Of a DNA stretch of 47,691 nt, positions 1-10,377 are shown piece by piece. This DNA comes from a virus, in IMG/VR virus record IMGVR_UViG_3300006638_000006, positions 1 to 47,691 of that record; one strand, given 5' to 3'. The notes under the pieces were generated by a model, which was given only the letters and a program-made list of their open reading frames with translations, did no database searches and was not told the origin of the DNA. Position 1 is the first letter of the stretch; each line of letters starts with the position of its first letter. The position numbers were made by a program, and so were the translations under genes.

Positions 1-311
1 TCCTAGAAGCTTATACCTATAGTATAACTCCTATAGTACATATATAGGTACTGTTTTGGGTTTTGTCAAGGGGTAAGTGAAAATAAATATTGTTATACCC
101 CTTTTGGGGCTTATAAGCTTTTTGGAGGGAATAGGCTCCCTATGGGGCTTCCCTGCCTAAGTCCTTGTTATTACTTCATTATACTGCTCAGTTCTTCCAA
201 ATGGTGAATTTCTGCTAATAAACTCCGAGGTCAAGTTCTCAACGACCAAAGGAACCCAAACCCCCTTGCACGGGGTCAAAGCTTGAGTTTCCCTATTAGG
301 AGGGCCTATTA
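1..311. promoter_or_regulatory. AT-rich left edge of the control region, no gene
   Basis: No credible gene is visible. Inverted repeats are seen at 14-21/43-50 (8 bp, TACCTATA/TATAGGTA), 68-75/96-103 (8 bp, AAGGGGTA/TACCCCTT, 20-nt loop) and 260-264/272-276 (5 bp). CTATAGTA occurs at 17-24 and 31-38 and again twice at the right end of the window (47660-47667, 47670-47677), so the two edges look like halves of one divergent control region between the rightward early block and the leftward late block. TATA-rich stretches could serve as -10 elements, but I could not assign a convincing -35/-10 pair. Confidence 0.4.
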
Positions 312-430
312 CTCCGTGTACTGACTATCAGTGTACTGACGGTTATTCATCAGTGTACTGACTATCAGTGTACTGATTAAGTCTCAGCAATCGGGCTATC
401 CATCCGTATACAGACTATCAGTGTACTGAT
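312..430. repeat. Array of paired 13-14 bp palindromes (operators or iterons)
   Basis: Four near-identical copies of ATCAGTGTACTGA(T) lie at 327-339, 349-361, 364-377 and 417-430, with two degenerate copies at 312-324 and 402-414. The core is an inverted repeat, ATCAGT-GT-ACTGAT. Copies come in three pairs (312/327, 349/364, 402/417), each pair offset by exactly 15 bp, with 37 and 53 bp between pair starts. This layout suits a dimeric DNA-binding protein binding side by side, either a transcription regulator or a replication initiator. The array sits between the window edge and the first gene. It is not a CRISPR array, since the gaps are too short and irregular. Confidence 0.75.
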
Positions 431-699
431 GATAATCGTTTCGGATGCGTAATGACTCTAAGGTATTACCATTGGCGTGTGTGCCATCTATCTAACTATC
501 TGTAACTACTACAGTTACGGTTAGATCAAGCCGCCTAGCACAATCCCTAACTCTTGTCAACTTCTTTAGTGTTTGAGCCATGCTTCTATAGCATACCTGT
601 TATGCGTTATTATGTGTTTACATCCTATTCAATCCTGCTATTCTCAGGTTATCGGAAACGCCTAAGCAGAATAGCTTCATAAGCAGGCCAAATTCCGAA

Positions 700-773
700 C
701 ATAGGCAAGCCGCGTGTATCAAAGCGCGACCATTGGTTAGACAATGAACTAACTCACATGTGTGAGGCCTATG
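700..773 (+). ncRNA. Cloverleaf-like four-helix unit (tRNA-like, not a canonical tRNA)
   Basis: A 7-bp closing helix, CATAGGC (700-706) with GCCTATG (767-773), encloses three arms in order: 711-715/724-728, 731-735/742-746 and 753-757/762-766. The last arm abuts the closing helix without a gap, as the T arm does in tRNA, and the total is 74 nt. It deviates from tRNA in having a 6-nt middle loop, a 4-nt last loop and no GG in the first loop or TTC in the last. I therefore treat it as a tRNA-like fold or one domain of the surrounding RNA. Confidence 0.4.
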
Positions 774-1166
774 GCATAGTTATGAGATGAATTGGCAACT
801 TGTCTTATAAACAGCAGTCGGCGCGAAACGTGGTTAAAGCAGTAATGATGCAATATGCACTTCATTATCTTAACCTAACAGTAACCGCTTACATAAATTG
901 ATTGCATTGTGCAAAGCCTAGCAGGATAGAGGTGCGAACCCTCTTAGACTTGCGACAAGGCGGACAAAATCTAGCAGACTTGCTAGCGCGTGAGACTATA
1001 GCGAAACGGTCTTAAATCAGATAACCCCGCATGCAAGTTTTATATTCTCTTACAGTTTAGTAAGTATAGGTTAGCCAAATCATTCGCTGATATTGCAGCA
1101 AGATAAGGTTACATAGGAAAGCAGAATTGATAGAGCGAAACGACCATGCGGATTAACAGACTAACT

Positions 1167-1196
1167 AAGCCTAGGGAATATCAAAAACCTAGGCTT
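1167..1196 (+). terminator. Terminator-like hairpin before the first gene
   Basis: A perfect 9-bp stem, AAGCCTAGG (1167-1175) with CCTAGGCTT (1188-1196), has a 12-nt loop and is followed by TATTAGATTGTTT. The T run is weak, so it may be a processing or attenuation hairpin rather than a full terminator. It marks the likely 3' end of the structured leader. Confidence 0.5.
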
Positions 1197-1232
1197 TATT
1201 AGATTGTTTAACAAAGAAAGGAAGCTAAGGCT

Positions 1233-1436
1233 ATGAGCAAAGCACAAAACACATGGACAAGGGCACAACTTGGATGGGATAGTCCAATCTCAAATCCATA
1301 CTATACAAAGCCAAATGCACCAGATAGGGCTGAATTAAAGCACAAACTCTTTATTGAGATGCAAAGGATTCGTTATGACATTAACCAAGTAAACAAGCGG
1401 TTAAGTAATGGGTTCAGGATTTTACCAACTCTGTAA
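1233..1436 (+). CDS. Hypothetical early protein, 67 aa
   Basis: This is the first gene of the rightward block. I do not recognise it. The product is soluble and basic, with a Trp-containing N-terminus, a central charged segment and no membrane segment. The ATG is preceded by a good ribosome binding site (AAAGGAAG, 1217-1224, 8 nt away). It is isolated between two strong hairpins (1167-1196 and 1448-1474), so it may be expressed as its own short transcript early in infection. Its position next to the control region suggests a host take-over or regulatory role, which is inference only. Confidence 0.7.
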   Translation: MSKAQNTWTRAQLGWDSPISNPYYTKPNAPDRAELKHKLFIEMQRIRYDINQVNKRLSNGFRILPTL

Positions 1437-1447
1437 TGTTTACAGCT

Positions 1448-1474
1448 AAGCCCACAACTGGAAACTGTGGGCTT
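1448..1474 (+). terminator. Terminator-like hairpin after the first gene
   Basis: A perfect 9-bp stem, AAGCCCACA (1448-1456) with TGTGGGCTT (1466-1474), has a 9-nt loop and is followed by TACTGTTAG. It starts 12 nt after the stop codon of the 67-aa gene and precedes the 174-aa gene. It could terminate or attenuate transcription between the two. Confidence 0.55.
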
Positions 1475-1536
1475 TACTGTTAGCATAAGCTAGCAACAAC
1501 GGCCAATTAGGGCCAACCTTAAAAGGAAACTAAATC

Positions 1537-3985: not shown

Positions 3986-4840
3986 ATGACAGAAAGAAAA
4001 AGCATACACTCATTTAGAGAAATCCCAGCAGATGCTTGGGGGTTTGAACCACCTGATATGGAAGTAGCAGACCGAGTATTAGCTATGTTCTGCAAAGAAG
4101 ATCAAGAGCAGTTTACAGGTGGTGGATACAAAGACGGTCGATGCTGGTACACGACGAATTACCATTTTGATAGGCACTTTCAAGGCTGCCACAGCCAATT
4201 AGGCTACGATCAAAAGAATAATCCGTTCTTATTCAACGCAGTCCTTCGCATACCTTTTAACAGTCGAGTCCGAGTACCATTGAACATCTACGCTGAATGG
4301 ATGACCTCAGAGAATAATCCTGCGTGGCGAGAGTCTCTGGATACTGCCTACGTCTGCAGAAATCCTAAGAACGAAGAGATAATTGGCTGGATATGGCCTA
4401 ATATGAAGATAGTTCCTGCGTTGCAGACAACTCATTTCTGTATCTCTACTAGGGATTTAACAGAGCACAGCTTCATTTTAAACCGTTTTATGACTTACCT
4501 TGAAGGAGACGACCTTGCAGAGGGTGATCCTAGGCTTGCGTGGATGTTAGCGCAGTACTTTCAAGGTGAGACAAACGAACTTAGCCCTAATCCTAACACT
4601 CACTCGGCGTTTGAGCCAAATCTCGATGGTAAAATCCCAAAGAGTTACATAACCGGCCCTGCGAAGGAGACTGAAGACCCAACTAAGAATTGGACGTTAA
4701 GAGTTAACCGTTTCTATCAAGTTTGGGATACGAAGAAGAATGATACTGTCTCAGAGTTTATCTCACGGTATAAACAACTCGTAGCTAACGCTGAGAAGAA
4801 ACAACTGAAATTAGAAGCACAGATAGGAGATGAAGAGTAA
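3986..4840 (+). CDS. Unknown protein opening the amide-ligase cassette, 284 aa
   Basis: I do not recognise this protein. It is soluble, with many aromatic and His residues in the first 140 residues (for example DGRCWYTTNYHFDRHF near residues 48-63), an acidic loop near residue 175, and a C-terminal 60 residues likely helical and charged. No Walker, Rossmann or nuclease motif was found. It ends 1 nt before the class I amidotransferase start, so it is co-translated with the cassette. Its place as the first of seven coupled genes suggests a dedicated role such as substrate or scaffold for the amide-forming enzymes, but nothing in the sequence proves it. Confidence 0.75.
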   Translation: MTERKSIHSFREIPADAWGFEPPDMEVADRVLAMFCKEDQEQFTGGGYKDGRCWYTTNYHFDRHFQGCHSQLGYDQKNNPFLFNAVLRIPFNSRVRVPLNIYAEWMTSENNPAWRESLDTAYVCRNPKNEEIIGWIWPNMKIVPALQTTHFCISTRDLTEHSFILNRFMTYLEGDDLAEGDPRLAWMLAQYFQGETNELSPNPNTHSAFEPNLDGKIPKSYITGPAKETEDPTKNWTLRVNRFYQVWDTKKNDTVSEFISRYKQLVANAEKKQLKLEAQIGDEE

Positions 4841-4841
4841 T

Positions 4842-5732
4842 ATGAAAATTATCCAAATCGGACAAGACGGTGGTATACAGAAGTGGCTTGAGAACCTCGG
4901 CCATGATGTTAAAATTGTAGACGGGCTTGGTGCTGACTTAGAGAAAGTTTATACACCAGACCTCGTGGTATTTACTGGTGGAAGTGACGTTTCACCATTC
5001 TTATACAACCAGACCAATACTCACAGTCATTCTGACGCAAGGCGTGATCTGACTGAAATCGCTTGGTATCATAAATTCTACTCTGTTCCTAAGCTCGGTA
5101 TCTGCCGTGGTGGACAGTTTCTACACGTTATGAACGGTGGGGAGATGGTGCAGGATATCTCTCGTCACGCTATCTCCGGTGAGCACGACTGCAAGTTCTG
5201 GAACAGAGATGCGCCTTACCAAGTAACGAGCACTCACCACCAGATGATGAAGATGAGGCCTGATACTCCTGCTATAGCCTATGCTAATCTAAATGGTAAT
5301 AAAGAGCGTGAAGCTGAGTGCCAGTACTACGGTCAGAGTAAATCAATGTGCTTCCAGCCTCATCCAGAGTACGAAAAGGTTAATCCGGCGACAGGGTTAT
5401 ACCCCGCTCGCGGTACAAACGCACTACTTCGTGTCTGTTACGGTGATATCGGTGTAGCTTCGGTTTACGGAAAGAACTATAAATTTGATGAGCCTGTACA
5501 ACCTAAACCAGCAGCTAAACTGCAACCAGTCAACATGGAATGGAGAGATATCGCCTTTCAACAGCCTGGATTCCTACAACAAGCTCGTGCGGCTCTTAAC
5601 AATGGTGGCGAACCCGGAGTGATCGTCGTAGACGAAGCTCATAACATTGAGCCAAAGGATATTGAAGACGAAGAGCCATTTATAGAAGAACATAATGAAG
5701 AAGAAGTTGATGAAGAAGGAGACGTTGCATAA
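4842..5732 (+). CDS. Class I glutamine amidotransferase (GATase I), 296 aa
   Basis: Class I GATases release ammonia from glutamine with a Cys-His-Glu triad and pass it to a partner enzyme. Here the nucleophile elbow GICRGG places Cys at about residue 88, and CFQPHPE supplies His 174 and Glu 176. An early LVVFTGGSDVSP segment gives the usual oxyanion region. The fold is complete in the first 190 residues. The last 100 residues are extra and end in a strongly acidic Glu/Asp tail. I prefer ATG 4842 over 4830 because AGGAG (4825-4829) is too close to 4830. Its stop overlaps the next start (TAATG). The acceptor of the ammonia is unknown, and the neighbouring ligases are the obvious candidates. Confidence 0.85.
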   Translation: MKIIQIGQDGGIQKWLENLGHDVKIVDGLGADLEKVYTPDLVVFTGGSDVSPFLYNQTNTHSHSDARRDLTEIAWYHKFYSVPKLGICRGGQFLHVMNGGEMVQDISRHAISGEHDCKFWNRDAPYQVTSTHHQMMKMRPDTPAIAYANLNGNKEREAECQYYGQSKSMCFQPHPEYEKVNPATGLYPARGTNALLRVCYGDIGVASVYGKNYKFDEPVQPKPAAKLQPVNMEWRDIAFQQPGFLQQARAALNNGGEPGVIVVDEAHNIEPKDIEDEEPFIEEHNEEEVDEEGDVA

Positions 5733-7024
5733 TGTGTGGACTTGTAGGATGTGTAGGAGAGTTAACTGATGCTGACATCGTAGCGTTCTCCTACCTTGGT
5801 AGCCTAGCTTCTCTTCGTGGTGTAGATAGTACTGGTTTTATGGACTGGCGAGATAAGGGTAAGAACCGAGAACAGCCGGGATGGACTTATGGTAAATCAC
5901 TCGAAGACGCTCACTCTGTCTTCGCTACGAATGGTAAGTTCTACTTCGATTTTGTTTGGAAGAGCTACGTTAAACATAACCCAACGGTCCTTGCAGCTCA
6001 CGCTAGGGCTGCCACTATAGGAAAGATTACAGTGCAAAATGCTCATCCATTTAGAATTGAGCACGTCCTTGGGATGCATAATGGGACTATCCGCTTCGGA
6101 CTAGACAACGCTGATAAATTCGAGACTGACTCACAAGCTCTCTTCGATAACCTCGTCCGAGAGGGTGACGTAGCAATTCAGAAACTTGTAGACAACTCTA
6201 ATGCTGCTTATGCTTTAGTTTGGATTGACAGTCGGGATAAAACTCTTAACCTGATGCGTAACGCAGAGCGTCCTTTGTACCTTCTTAAGAGCTATAGTAC
6301 TCAGATTTGCTTCTGGGCAAGTGATAAATCGTGGCTGGAAGCTGTCCTTCCTTACTTCAAATATCCGTGTGCACAAATCGTTCCTGCTTCAGTTAATATG
6401 AAGTATTCTTTCAACCTTAAGAACCCAAAGAAAGCTGTCTCAGAAGTAAAGGAGACACTTTATACAAAGACGTTTCACTTTCGCGGGTACTCGACGTCGG
6501 AGAGGGATTGGGTACGTGACTCAAAAGAATGGACAGAAGCAAACTGGATTAACCAGCCAGACGCTAAAGAGACTAACAGCGTGGCTGAGAAGTCCAATAA
6601 CGTAGTAAGACTGCCTCTTAACCACGGGGGTCAGGTCTCTGGTGCAGATGGTGTTCAAAGGTATTGGTATGAGAAGTACAAAATGTATTTAACATACGAA
6701 GAGTTTCAAGAGAAAGAGAAGAAGAACGCTTCTGCGATAATCCCGTTCCAAGAAGATGGCACTTCGGCTTTACGTAAGACTTTTGGTGAACTCTATGTAA
6801 CCAATGAAGTCTATGATAAAATTCTTCATAATGGTTGCTGCGGTTGTCCAAAGATCGCCGAGAAGTACGAACTAATAGAGTTCATAGACCGAGACGCTTA
6901 TCTCTGTCCAACGTGTAAAGAAGACGAACATTGGCGTAGTGTCGTTATAAAAGATTACATCGACGCTAAACTAATTGGTGAGAATATTGGTAAAACTGAA
7001 GGAGACGAAGTAACATGCCACTGA
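5732..7024 (+). CDS. Class II glutamine amidotransferase (Ntn type), 430 aa
   Basis: Class II GATases use an N-terminal Cys nucleophile exposed after Met removal. The sequence starts M-C-GLVGCVG, so Cys2 is the nucleophile. Other family marks are LRGVDSTG (around residue 29), AHARAATIG (89-97), GMHNGTI (114-120) and an Asp in ETDSQ (133). The amidotransferase fold spans about residues 1-240. Beyond it are a charged linker and a C-terminal zinc-ribbon-like part with Cys 369, 370, 372, 392 and 395. No synthase domain is fused, so ammonia must go to a separate partner. The TAATG overlap with the class I enzyme is notable because the two GATase types are unrelated. The end overlaps the ATP-grasp gene by 10 nt. 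Confidence 0.88.
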   Translation: MCGLVGCVGELTDADIVAFSYLGSLASLRGVDSTGFMDWRDKGKNREQPGWTYGKSLEDAHSVFATNGKFYFDFVWKSYVKHNPTVLAAHARAATIGKITVQNAHPFRIEHVLGMHNGTIRFGLDNADKFETDSQALFDNLVREGDVAIQKLVDNSNAAYALVWIDSRDKTLNLMRNAERPLYLLKSYSTQICFWASDKSWLEAVLPYFKYPCAQIVPASVNMKYSFNLKNPKKAVSEVKETLYTKTFHFRGYSTSERDWVRDSKEWTEANWINQPDAKETNSVAEKSNNVVRLPLNHGGQVSGADGVQRYWYEKYKMYLTYEEFQEKEKKNASAIIPFQEDGTSALRKTFGELYVTNEVYDKILHNGCCGCPKIAEKYELIEFIDRDAYLCPTCKEDEHWRSVVIKDYIDAKLIGENIGKTEGDEVTCH

Positions 7025-7905
7025 AACCGGGTAATAACGGTAAGCCTGCTTTAGCTTACATTCTGCGACGCAGGAAGCTAGGACGAACTAGTGTTGTAGA
7101 AATACGAAAGGCTAGCCAGCACATTGGTAAACGTATTATAGGCAAGCGCATCGAAGACGATGCAGTTACTTGTATCCGATGGGGGTTTACCGAACAGGTT
7201 CCTCAGAAGAAGGTATTTAACACCGCAGAAGCTATCCACGAAGTTAACGATAAGAAAGCGTTTCGATTAAAGACTGCTGCTGCGGGGCTAGCCCCTATAA
7301 GCTGGGGTACTTGCAAAGAATATATGAGTCACCTTCAACCAGACCAGAATATGCCGTGTCCAGTTATTGTTCGACCAGCGCAACACGCACAGGGCAGGCA
7401 TGTGTACCTTTGCCCTAATCACGATACGTTAAAACATGCTTGCGGACTGTTTAAAGACTATTATATCAGTCAGTACATCAACAAGACCGCTGAATACCGT
7501 GTATTCGTTGCTCAGGGTCGTGCGGTGTGGGTAGCTAAGAAAACTCCGGGTAATCCGAAGGATATCGCTTGGAATGTAGCTAAAGGCGGTCGGTTTGATA
7601 ACGTATCATTCTCAGAGTGGCCGCTGAAGATCGTTAAAACGGCTATTGAAGCGTTTAACTTAAGCAGTCTTGACTTCGGTGGTGTAGACGTTATGGAAGA
7701 CGAAAAGGGTAATGCGTACGTCTTAGAGATTAACTCTGCACCATCGCAGACTAGTCCGTATCGTCAGAGCTGTTGTGCTAAGGCATTTGACTATATGCTA
7801 GAATATGGTAAAGAGCGTATTCCACTAGTTAAAGAAAAGGGTGGGTATTTGAAGTTTATCCATCCGAGTATAGACGAGAAAGCTAAAATCGGAGTAAAAG
7901 AATGA
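7015..7905 (+). CDS. ATP-grasp ligase, 296 aa
   Basis: ATP-grasp enzymes activate a carboxylate as acyl-phosphate and join it to an amine. Visible marks are a basic-VRP segment followed by a small-residue loop (VIVRPAQHAQGRHV, about 117-130), EYRVFVAQG (160-168), FGGVDVMED (221-229) and the metal-binding YVLEINSAPS (235-244), which resembles RimK and cell-wall ligase relatives. The first 100 residues are a variable substrate-side domain with many Arg and Lys. It overlaps the upstream amidotransferase by 10 nt and the downstream ligase by 4 nt (ATGA). Together these suggest stepwise amide or peptide bond formation; the substrate is unknown. Confidence 0.85.
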   Translation: MPLKPGNNGKPALAYILRRRKLGRTSVVEIRKASQHIGKRIIGKRIEDDAVTCIRWGFTEQVPQKKVFNTAEAIHEVNDKKAFRLKTAAAGLAPISWGTCKEYMSHLQPDQNMPCPVIVRPAQHAQGRHVYLCPNHDTLKHACGLFKDYYISQYINKTAEYRVFVAQGRAVWVAKKTPGNPKDIAWNVAKGGRFDNVSFSEWPLKIVKTAIEAFNLSSLDFGGVDVMEDEKGNAYVLEINSAPSQTSPYRQSCCAKAFDYMLEYGKERIPLVKEKGGYLKFIHPSIDEKAKIGVKE

Positions 7906-8657
7906 CTAAAACTAAAATCTTAATCGGTTGTGATCCTGAACTATTCGTTGTAGATAAGGACAAATTCCCGGTATCGGCACACGATCTTATCGCTGGTGAT
8001 AAACTCAATCCTTCACCTGTTCCAAATGGTGCAATCCAAAAGGACGGTGTAGCTGCTGAGTTCAACATCCTTCCTGCTGACTCCGAGAATGACTTTGTTC
8101 TTAAAATTAGTTGCGTTCGTCAGCATCTTCTAGATGCTGTTCAAAAGAAGAACAAAGATTATATCTTAGTAGCTAAGCCAACGATGAAGTTCACACGTCG
8201 TCAGTGGGCTGATATCCCTTGGGATGCTAAGCAACTTGGGTGTGAGCCTGATTACTCGGCTTATTCTCCTAATATTCCTAATACTCCGCCTCAGACAACG
8301 AAGTTCATGCGTACCGGTTCAGGCCATGTACACGTCTCGTGGGGTCGTGAGAATATTGACTATAGGGATGACACACGATATCGTGAGAATATCTCTACAC
8401 TTATCTGGCACTTCGATAAGCATCTATACCCTAACAGCTTGATTTGGGATAAAGATAAAGAGCGTCAGGAATTGTACGGTAAGCAAGGGGCGTTTCGTCC
8501 TAAACCATATGGTGTAGAGTACCGCACTTTGAGTAACGCTTGGTTAAACGACGAGAAGACTATGCGGTTTGTCTATCGGACTACAGTACAGTGCACTAGG
8601 AACTGGCTGGACGGGGCTAATCCTAATGACTACGCTATGCCTAGGTTTGAAGGTTAA
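7902..8657 (+). CDS. phiEco32-like COOH-NH2 ligase, type 2, 251 aa
   Basis: The N-terminus IGCDPELFVVD and the DGVAAEFNI stretch (near residues 48-56) match the phage COOH-NH2 ligase-type 2 family, a glutamine-synthetase-fold group first noted in phage phiEco32 and proposed to make amide bonds with ATP. A conserved GSGHVHVSWG (about 146-155) and PYGVEYRTLSN (about 204-214) supply the His, Glu and Arg expected for metal, ATP and substrate. It is full length. The start overlaps the ATP-grasp stop (ATGA). It is the second of three predicted ligases in the cassette. Family assignment is by recognition of these motifs, not by a search. Confidence 0.82.
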   Translation: MTKTKILIGCDPELFVVDKDKFPVSAHDLIAGDKLNPSPVPNGAIQKDGVAAEFNILPADSENDFVLKISCVRQHLLDAVQKKNKDYILVAKPTMKFTRRQWADIPWDAKQLGCEPDYSAYSPNIPNTPPQTTKFMRTGSGHVHVSWGRENIDYRDDTRYRENISTLIWHFDKHLYPNSLIWDKDKERQELYGKQGAFRPKPYGVEYRTLSNAWLNDEKTMRFVYRTTVQCTRNWLDGANPNDYAMPRFEG

Positions 8658-8672
8658 GGAGAAAGTATTATC

Positions 8673-9308
8673 ATGGCCATCCATGAACTAGACTATATCG
8701 ACAACCGTGATTTACAGCGAAACTTTCATTGTGTCCTAGTAGAATACAAATCCAAACACTACTATATTCTTAACAAGAATGGCAGTTTTGTAGAAGCAAT
8801 ACCATTGCAAGACGACGGTATGTACTCCGATGAGCGTATTCAAATTAATATGAACGAAAGGCCGGAATTTAAAATTCCGAAACTAGGGTATTTTCTTAAC
8901 CCAAAAGACGGGTATAGTCTGGTGATAATTAACCGGTCTGTCCGCAGACAATGGATGTTTGGTGTTTGCCCTAGTAACGTAGTCTCATATCAAGTAGGTT
9001 TTGACAAGAAAGGTGCGCTCAGTCTGACCTATAGACAAGGTATTAGTGCGTATTTATTTGAGACCAGTGTTGGATGTCAGATGTCCACTCGGAATAAAAC
9101 TCTTGATGATTGGGATGGACGGATGGCTTTTGTCCTTCGCCCAGACTTCGCAGTGTATAATGGAAAACTTCTACATACAGACGGAGTAATCGGAGAATTA
9201 GATATTCAGAATAAAAGGGTAGTCATTCAAGACCCGGAGCTAGATGACAGTCTTATGCGCGATCAAATTCAAATGAAATTAGGATGGAGAGTAACGAGTG
9301 TTAAATAA
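8673..9308 (+). CDS. Unknown cassette protein, 211 aa
   Basis: I do not recognise this protein. It is soluble and appears beta-rich, with many Tyr, Asp and Asn and no clear catalytic motif. A strong ribosome binding site (AAGGAGAAAG, starting near 8656) precedes the ATG. It sits between two predicted amide ligases and its end overlaps the amidoligase start by 11 nt, so it is an integral member of the cassette. It may be a substrate-binding subunit or an acceptor protein, which is inference from position alone. Confidence 0.75.
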   Translation: MAIHELDYIDNRDLQRNFHCVLVEYKSKHYYILNKNGSFVEAIPLQDDGMYSDERIQINMNERPEFKIPKLGYFLNPKDGYSLVIINRSVRRQWMFGVCPSNVVSYQVGFDKKGALSLTYRQGISAYLFETSVGCQMSTRNKTLDDWDGRMAFVLRPDFAVYNGKLLHTDGVIGELDIQNKRVVIQDPELDDSLMRDQIQMKLGWRVTSVK

Positions 9309-10377
9309 ATCAGACTTCCCTAAAGACCAAGGATATCTATCCAGTCTTTTAGAGGATAAAATCTCAGTGTTTTCAGAGGCTCCTTGTAAGAAAGGTCTTC
9401 TCTTCGGCGTAGAAATTGAAAACGAAGCTTTTGGTCTAGACGAACCTAGGTTGCCTGCTCAGATTAGAGCTATGTTTGCTAACGGTAACTGGAAAATCAT
9501 TACCGATAACAGCCTTCGTGGTAATGGATATGAATTTGTATCCCCTCCTAAGAAGAAGAAGGATATTACTGACTTTCTACAAGAAGGCTACGAAACTACA
9601 AAGCTTGTTAAGTGGTCAAATAGTCGTCGGACTAGTGTGCATATCCATACTAACGTAGCTGATCTTACCGTAGAACAGCTACTTATTTTCTTATCTGTTT
9701 ATTGGATTTTTGAGCCTCTCTTATTTTTGACTACCGATAAAGTCCGAAAGGATAACACATTCTGTGTCTCAGGTAGTGTGGAAAGCAGGAACATCCTTGA
9801 GCAGATGCTGGTAGAGCAAAACCTGCTTAATAACATGCCAGATGAAGAAGAGCAGAAATATGCTAGCTTGAACCTATACCCACTGCGTCGATTTGGCACA
9901 GTTGAATGCCGTATCTTTCATTCTACGTTTGATCCAAATGAGTTCAACTTCTGGCTAAGTCATTTAGAAGCTCTGTACAACTTCTCCCTTAAGAAACAAA
10001 CACTTACGGATGTAAAGAAACTGTTTATGGACTTAACTCCACTGCAGTTTAGCAAGACTATTTTAGGTGAAGAATTGGTTAAGAAGTATCAATCTCTTTG
10101 TAAAAAAGACGACGTAGACCTTGACAACCTAGTCCGGGATGGTTATATGTTCTCTAGACCTATCCTTTCACTCGGCAGTGTGCTCAAGGACTTGCGTGCA
10201 GATTTTTTTACAATAAAAGAAGCCGGAAGAGTGAAAGCACAAGAAGCCCAAGAGTTCGCAAGAAAGCACGCAATTGACGATAATTGGCTTGACCAAGAGA
10301 TTATTCAAGCAAGGAACGCTGAACTCATTCGACGGGAAATTCAAGCTGCTCAAATTATAGATGTGAGGCAACAATGA
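9298..10377 (+). CDS. Amidoligase (GS-fold COOH-NH2 ligase), 359 aa
   Basis: The region LFGVEIENEAFG (about residues 30-41), DNSLRGNGYEFVSPP (about 66-80), SVHIHTNVADLT (about 107-118) and ECRIFHSTFDP (about 202-212) match the amidoligase family, whose members are predicted to ligate amines to carboxylates in peptide or small-molecule tagging. The conserved Glu, His and Arg residues of the GS-like active site are present. The C-terminal 100 residues are helical and charged. The start is GTG (9298-9300) with AGGATGGAGA upstream, inside the end of the previous gene. It ends with a 4-nt overlap onto a zinc-finger gene. Confidence 0.85.
   Translation: MLNKSDFPKDQGYLSSLLEDKISVFSEAPCKKGLLFGVEIENEAFGLDEPRLPAQIRAMFANGNWKIITDNSLRGNGYEFVSPPKKKKDITDFLQEGYETTKLVKWSNSRRTSVHIHTNVADLTVEQLLIFLSVYWIFEPLLFLTTDKVRKDNTFCVSGSVESRNILEQMLVEQNLLNNMPDEEEQKYASLNLYPLRRFGTVECRIFHSTFDPNEFNFWLSHLEALYNFSLKKQTLTDVKKLFMDLTPLQFSKTILGEELVKKYQSLCKKDDVDLDNLVRDGYMFSRPILSLGSVLKDLRADFFTIKEAGRVKAQEAQEFARKHAIDDNWLDQEIIQARNAELIRREIQAAQIIDVRQQ

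Follow-up and report, generated by a model that had tools for sequence, protein, structure and literature searches.

Early-operon leader of a Cobavirinae-like Zobellviridae podophage with a probable diverged fragment of a small cobavirus leader RNA

The antitermination leaders of the nut, put and rrn types, known from lambda, HK022 and rRNA operons, are RNA elements that stand at the start of a long operon. Phages also carry large RNAs, of which GOLLD and ROOL are often encoded near tRNA islands (PMC12286853). For the cobaviruses, the 172-bp direct terminal repeat (DTR) of Lentibacter phage ICBM1 has been mapped from PacBio reads, and cobaviral DTRs have already been reported to carry conserved G+C-rich sequence at the 5' end (PMC6775973). 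Between the DTR and the first early gene, ICBM1 (positions 172-911) and ICBM2 (159-741) have a leader with no annotated gene. The words promoter, leader, riboswitch, sRNA and regulatory are absent from the main text of the cobavirus paper, no Rfam family matches the cobavirus leader RNA described below, and neither Rfam nor the literature searched holds a description of it; Rfam models applied to the relatives return tRNAs only.

The window analyzed here is a complete IMG/VR virus record of 47,691 bases. Judged from its proteins, it is a Zobellviridae-type podophage nearest to the Cobavirinae: its terminase shares about 60% identity with its counterparts in Roseobacter phage SIO1, ICBM1 and Celeribacter phage P12053L, and the PHROGs matched by its head, tail and replication genes are ones known from such podophages. 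The genome has the divergent Zobellviridae layout, with late genes on the minus strand from 47620 and early genes on the plus strand from 1233, and about 22 kb of co-oriented early genes lie downstream of the leader. The two features that frame the locus are:

443-1232, plus strand: gene-free leader of the early operon, with no ORF longer than 42 aa, like the leaders in ICBM1 and ICBM2
1233-1436, plus strand: first early ORF, 67 aa, no PHROG match

Positions 29-76 are the one control-region stretch with a match (81.6% over 49 nt) in L006, the closest terminase relative. In L006 the matching DNA is upstream of the terminase, at a distance of about 690 nt; the ends of the contig are therefore probably neighbours, and the gene-free divergent region would span about 1.3 kb. 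The stretch as a whole has no nucleotide relatives in phage records and none above chance in 30 related records, and no leader match is found at the contig ends of three terminase relatives. In the IMG/VR protein search for relatives of the early region, the genes at 1233-1436, 1537-2061, 5732-7024 and 7902-8657 return no match, and the primase/helicase returns matches of 33% identity only. Downstream, positions 4830-10377 hold a cluster of glutamine amidotransferase, aminotransferase, glutaminyl-transferase-like, COOH.NH2 ligase and amidoligase genes, a cluster also present in CW02, PQ867842 and PQ867843. Positions 1367-1481 (plus strand) resemble the threonine operon leader below threshold (24.3 bits against a gathering score of 55), mainly through a AAGCCCACA..TGTGGGCTT terminator-like hairpin 3' of gene 1.

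The original prediction had placed a stretch of about 720 nt without a credible gene at 480-1200, and this holds for the whole of 440-1232, where the longest ORF is 42 aa and the six-frame translations give no PHROG match at E<=0.1. That one or more short or decayed genes occupy the region is very improbable: two consecutive ORFs of 33-37 aa (800-901 and 902-1015) could be read in this way, but no gene is annotated at this place in ICBM1 or ICBM2, and the lack of any PHROG match speaks against short and decayed genes alike. Because like-placed gene-free leaders occur in ICBM1 and ICBM2 and the terminus anatomy is shared, 480-1200 is the start of the early operon, its leader, lying between predicted terminus and operator repeats and the first early gene. 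The elements on its upstream side are:

41-69, minus strand: predicted late promoter, TTGACA (69-64), 17-nt spacer and TATATA (46-41), read from sequence
195-290, minus strand: conserved genome-terminus element, with a G-run box (C-runs on the plus strand, 257-279) and a AGAAATTC box (GAATTTCTG on the plus strand, 204-212)
313-339, 350-376 and 403-429, plus strand: three 27-bp units TCNGTGTACTGA-CTA-TCAGTGTACTGA, operator-like or DTR repeats
407-436, plus strand: candidate early promoter TATACA-18-GATAAT, from a consensus scan only, the number of such sites being not above chance

A TTGACA..TATAAT pair stands at the place of the late promoter in L085 and L030 as well, and both terminus boxes recur in the divergent regions of 11 other phages aligned with the window. 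In ICBM1 the mapped DTR has the C-run box CCACCCCCTAACCCCCC close to its 5' end, and the AGAATTTCTGTTAG box is just outside it. Since these boxes are common to the window and ICBM1, the DTR of the window is predicted to start, probably, at about 225-245, and since they flank the mapped DTR start in ICBM1, they may be a packaging or cleavage signal. The same order, a G-run box (GGGGG..AAGGGGGGT..GGG) followed about 40-50 nt on by a TCTNACAGAAATTCTAGG box, is seen upstream of the terminase operon in very diverged Zobellviridae, the records listed being the window (195-290, minus strand), L085, L047, L030, L026, L074, L050, L079, L016, L086, L088, L004, L116 and L089. The three 27-bp units probably lie inside the predicted terminal repeat; their pattern is matched 17 times in the window (5.3 expected), with nine of the 17 within 313-429. 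Each unit is a pair of near-palindromes TCAGTGTACTGA, and the units overlap the candidate early promoter. Within the leader, all on the plus strand, stand the only three copies of GCGAAACG in the genome (823, 1001 and 1135, spanning 823-1142), the first two extending to GCGAAACGNNNTTAAANCAG; the extended pattern finds only unrelated matches in IMG/VR.

The helices that had been named at 832-875, 700-773 and 1167-1196 are real and are present in the MFE fold, where the 700-773 unit is closed by CATAGGC/GCCTATG. The other two are listed as follows:

832-875, plus strand: nested hairpin GGTTAA..TTAACC, in both the MFE and the centroid fold
1155-1208, plus strand: hairpin with a 9-bp core AAGCCTAGG/CCTAGGCTT at 1167-1196, z -3.96, just before the gene 1 ribosome-binding site

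The claim that their density and nesting are unusual for this genome is not borne out by folding energies. Compared with shuffled sequence, 440-1150 gives z -1.3 to -1.6 on the plus strand and +0.01 to -0.6 on the minus strand, so that no excess folding is seen, and these values fall within the range of 711-nt control segments elsewhere in the genome (+2.1 to -4.5). Including the terminal hairpin (440-1200) brings z to -1.97. None of the 150-nt windows starting at 451-976 reaches z -2, and the local fold around the nested hairpin (815-935) has z +0.89, not better than shuffles. Local folding stands out only at the 1167-1196 hairpin (windows starting at 1051 and 1126) and in the repeats around 300-430. 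ICBM1, ICBM2 and L130 likewise have a hairpin in front of gene 1 at a like place, the sequences being unrelated among the four leaders including that of the window.

The original prediction had proposed one large ornate non-coding RNA, either like GOLLD or ROOL or of a new class of that size, which would be a separate transcript running from a promoter near 407-436 to the hairpin at 1167-1196. The gene-free stretch is indeed bounded by a promoter-like site and a strong hairpin, and its folding is slightly biased to the plus strand (z about -1.5, about 0 on the minus strand). Rfam, however, gives no match to any family at the gathering threshold and, for positions 1-2300, no relevant match even at E<=10, GOLLD, ROOL and HEARO included; the folding lies within the range of coding controls, the window has no tRNA, and the leaders of relatives are mosaic, with a single element of about 100 nt in common. 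A large RNA is thus unsupported and is an improbable account of the locus. The further suggestion of a new or divergent RNA class survives in reduced form: it fails as a 720-nt ornate RNA and stands as a small leader module, by way of the covarying RNA of about 100 nt in relatives, the 3' part of which is detectable in the window at 906-987.

The common element of about 100 nt is found in the leaders of ICBM1, ICBM2, SIO1, SIO1 strain OS and CRP-4, the remaining parts of which are mosaic. Scanning IMG/VR for ATCGGCAARCAAACACCG added nine metagenomic leaders for a total of 14 sequences; two matches that were the ICBM1 and ICBM2 genomes again, and the unrelated L128 and L137, were left out. The loci are:

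cobavirus leader RNA (14 loci): L116:347-451 (ICBM1), L117:473-577, L120:865-967, L121:613-715, L122:1109-1209, L125, L126 and L130-L136

RNAalifold predicts three helices from the 14 sequences, and in every one of them one or more pairs have changed in both partners. Pairing combinations fill 96.4% of the alignment cells at paired positions, compared with 86.2% after shuffling. The covariation score is 0.315 compared with 0.143 for shuffled alignments (0/500 as high), a test that sequence relatedness can inflate, and slid versions, which keep the relatedness, reach at most 0.074. L135 carries an insert of about 35 nt that separates the 5' domain from the 3' hairpin. The loci are immediately preceded by a promoter-like sequence and followed by a second TTGACA. 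Occurrence is patchy, as the element is not found in P12053L, CRP-5 or PQ867845. For the two cobavirus elements tested, folding is not better than for shuffled sequence (z +1.57 and +0.74), so energy z-scores can miss a real covarying RNA and cannot decide for or against one of this kind.

The corresponding feature of the window is:

906-987, plus strand: probable diverged counterpart of the cobavirus leader RNA, covering its 3' part and flank, GTGCAAAGCCTAGCAGGATAGAGG ... AGACTTG..GACA..GCAGACT, the best profile match in the window

A first profile, built from five sequences with long flanks, missed this site, and the element profile built from 14 sequences (A2) found it: its best match on both strands of the window is 907-933 on the plus strand, with 5.7 bits and an E-value of 0.37 for the whole window or 0.007 for the leader alone. 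A 14-sequence profile with slightly longer ends scores 9.3 bits (E 0.048), and a CRP-4-type profile with about 50 nt of flank, built after the flank similarity had been noticed, scores 11.7 bits over 906-986 (E 0.0065). The best scores of these three profiles in 621 kb of controls, 20 other Zobellviridae-type or otherwise related sequences, are 4.5, 5.8 and 5.9. At most 1 in 1,500 shuffled leaders scores as well as 906-987, and 1 in 400 shuffles does when the alignment allows long inserts. The 3' core of the cobavirus RNA, GWGCA-N3-CCTAGCA-N4-AGAGG, is present at 909-932, and the site lies in the early-operon leader of a Zobellviridae phage on the sense strand. On direct reading, the window sequence breaks three of the six GNCC/GGNC pairs in the 3' hairpin, and a shifted 4-bp GCCU/AGGU pairing is possible there. 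The 5' domain, CGGCAARC..GYUACCG, is not recognised in the window, and the best leader matches to the full covariance model (R1; 7.7 and 5.7 bits) are like chance matches elsewhere. For these three reasons 906-987 is not filed as a member of the cobavirus leader RNA family; on the sequence comparison, it is quite likely a diverged relative.

An unlikely alternative is that the leader consists of spacer DNA that evolves fast and holds promoters, operators and repeats, and that the 906-987 match arose by chance. The lack of excess folding and of nucleotide relatives fits spacer DNA, as do the result with the full covariance model and the chance occurrence of the core pattern elsewhere: 84,980 genomes hold seven matches, below a rough chance estimate of about 15, and four of the seven, of Akkermansiaceae type, span the stop codon of an open frame. 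Against chance, 906-987 is the best match of the genome, on the right strand and in the right place, and scores above everything in the 621 kb of controls.

Taking together the gene-free leader, the like anatomy in relatives with mapped DTRs, the covariation in relatives and the above-chance 3' match, we favour, with moderate confidence, the reading of about 443-1232 as the 5' untranslated leader of the early operon in a Cobavirinae-like Zobellviridae podophage, with a diverged RNA part at 906-987 and a hairpin before the gene 1 ribosome-binding site. Transcription of the leader would start near 443, and the leader RNA would then act in cis on host RNA polymerase by antitermination, or on mRNA processing or translation, with the outcome that the long early operon is expressed. 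Such a cis-acting role is somewhat favoured; antitermination in particular would be an obvious candidate ahead of a long operon, but taken singly is somewhat less likely than not. The gene 1 hairpin could serve in mRNA processing or protection, or as a terminator. One sequence in the leader may bear on antitermination:

1047-1054, plus strand: CTCTTACA, lambda-type boxA core, a weak lead (an 8-mer that could be chance)

This is the only match in the window to strict boxA patterns. On the sense strand of other leaders, rrn-type boxA motifs (TTCTTTAACAA) account for three of four genome matches in CW02, two of two in the 31.5 kb of PQ867842 examined and two of five in ICP2; the leaders of CW02, ICP2 and PQ867842 are L118:41361-42452, L119:25213-26990 and L004:9528-11282, and the leaders of other relatives have none. 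In CW02 every boxA has a promoter-like TTGACA ahead of it, and two also have a GAAGC..GCTTC hairpin in front.

Zobellviridae early leaders might, more speculatively, form one ancient class of modular cis-acting RNA, absent from Rfam, by which phages that seem to be without an RNA polymerase of their own steer the host enzyme through the early operon. The window would then hold a strongly diverged member, its structure rebuilt around a kept core. This generalization is rather unlikely. No phage RNA polymerase is seen among the window proteins scanned, which raises the question of how such phages take over host transcription, and the covarying RNA at the start of the cobavirus early operon offers a defined target for deletion or a reporter.

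Among known systems, the window resembles GOLLD, ROOL and HEARO in size range, phage setting and a gene-free stretch with many short helices, and differs in the Rfam, tRNA and folding results given above and in that its relatives share just a module of about 100 nt. With nut, put and rrn-type leaders it would share RNA elements placed where a long operon begins and perhaps the CTCTTACA in its leader; rrn-type boxA motifs cluster in the leaders of its relatives CW02 and PQ867842. It differs in that its leader has no rrn-type boxA and no recognised boxB, and in that no N-like protein is identified. From the cobavirus early leaders (ICBM1, ICBM2, SIO1 and CRP-4) it differs in the unrecognised 5' domain, the low covariance-model scores, the three broken hairpin pairs and about 20 nt of extra sequence before the 3' module. 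In position, strand, gene-free length (580-790 nt), the adjoining C-run terminus element, the hairpin just before gene 1 and the 3' RNA module it is like them. The region is of this known kind, the early leader of a phage, and probably holds a fragment of a small structured RNA.
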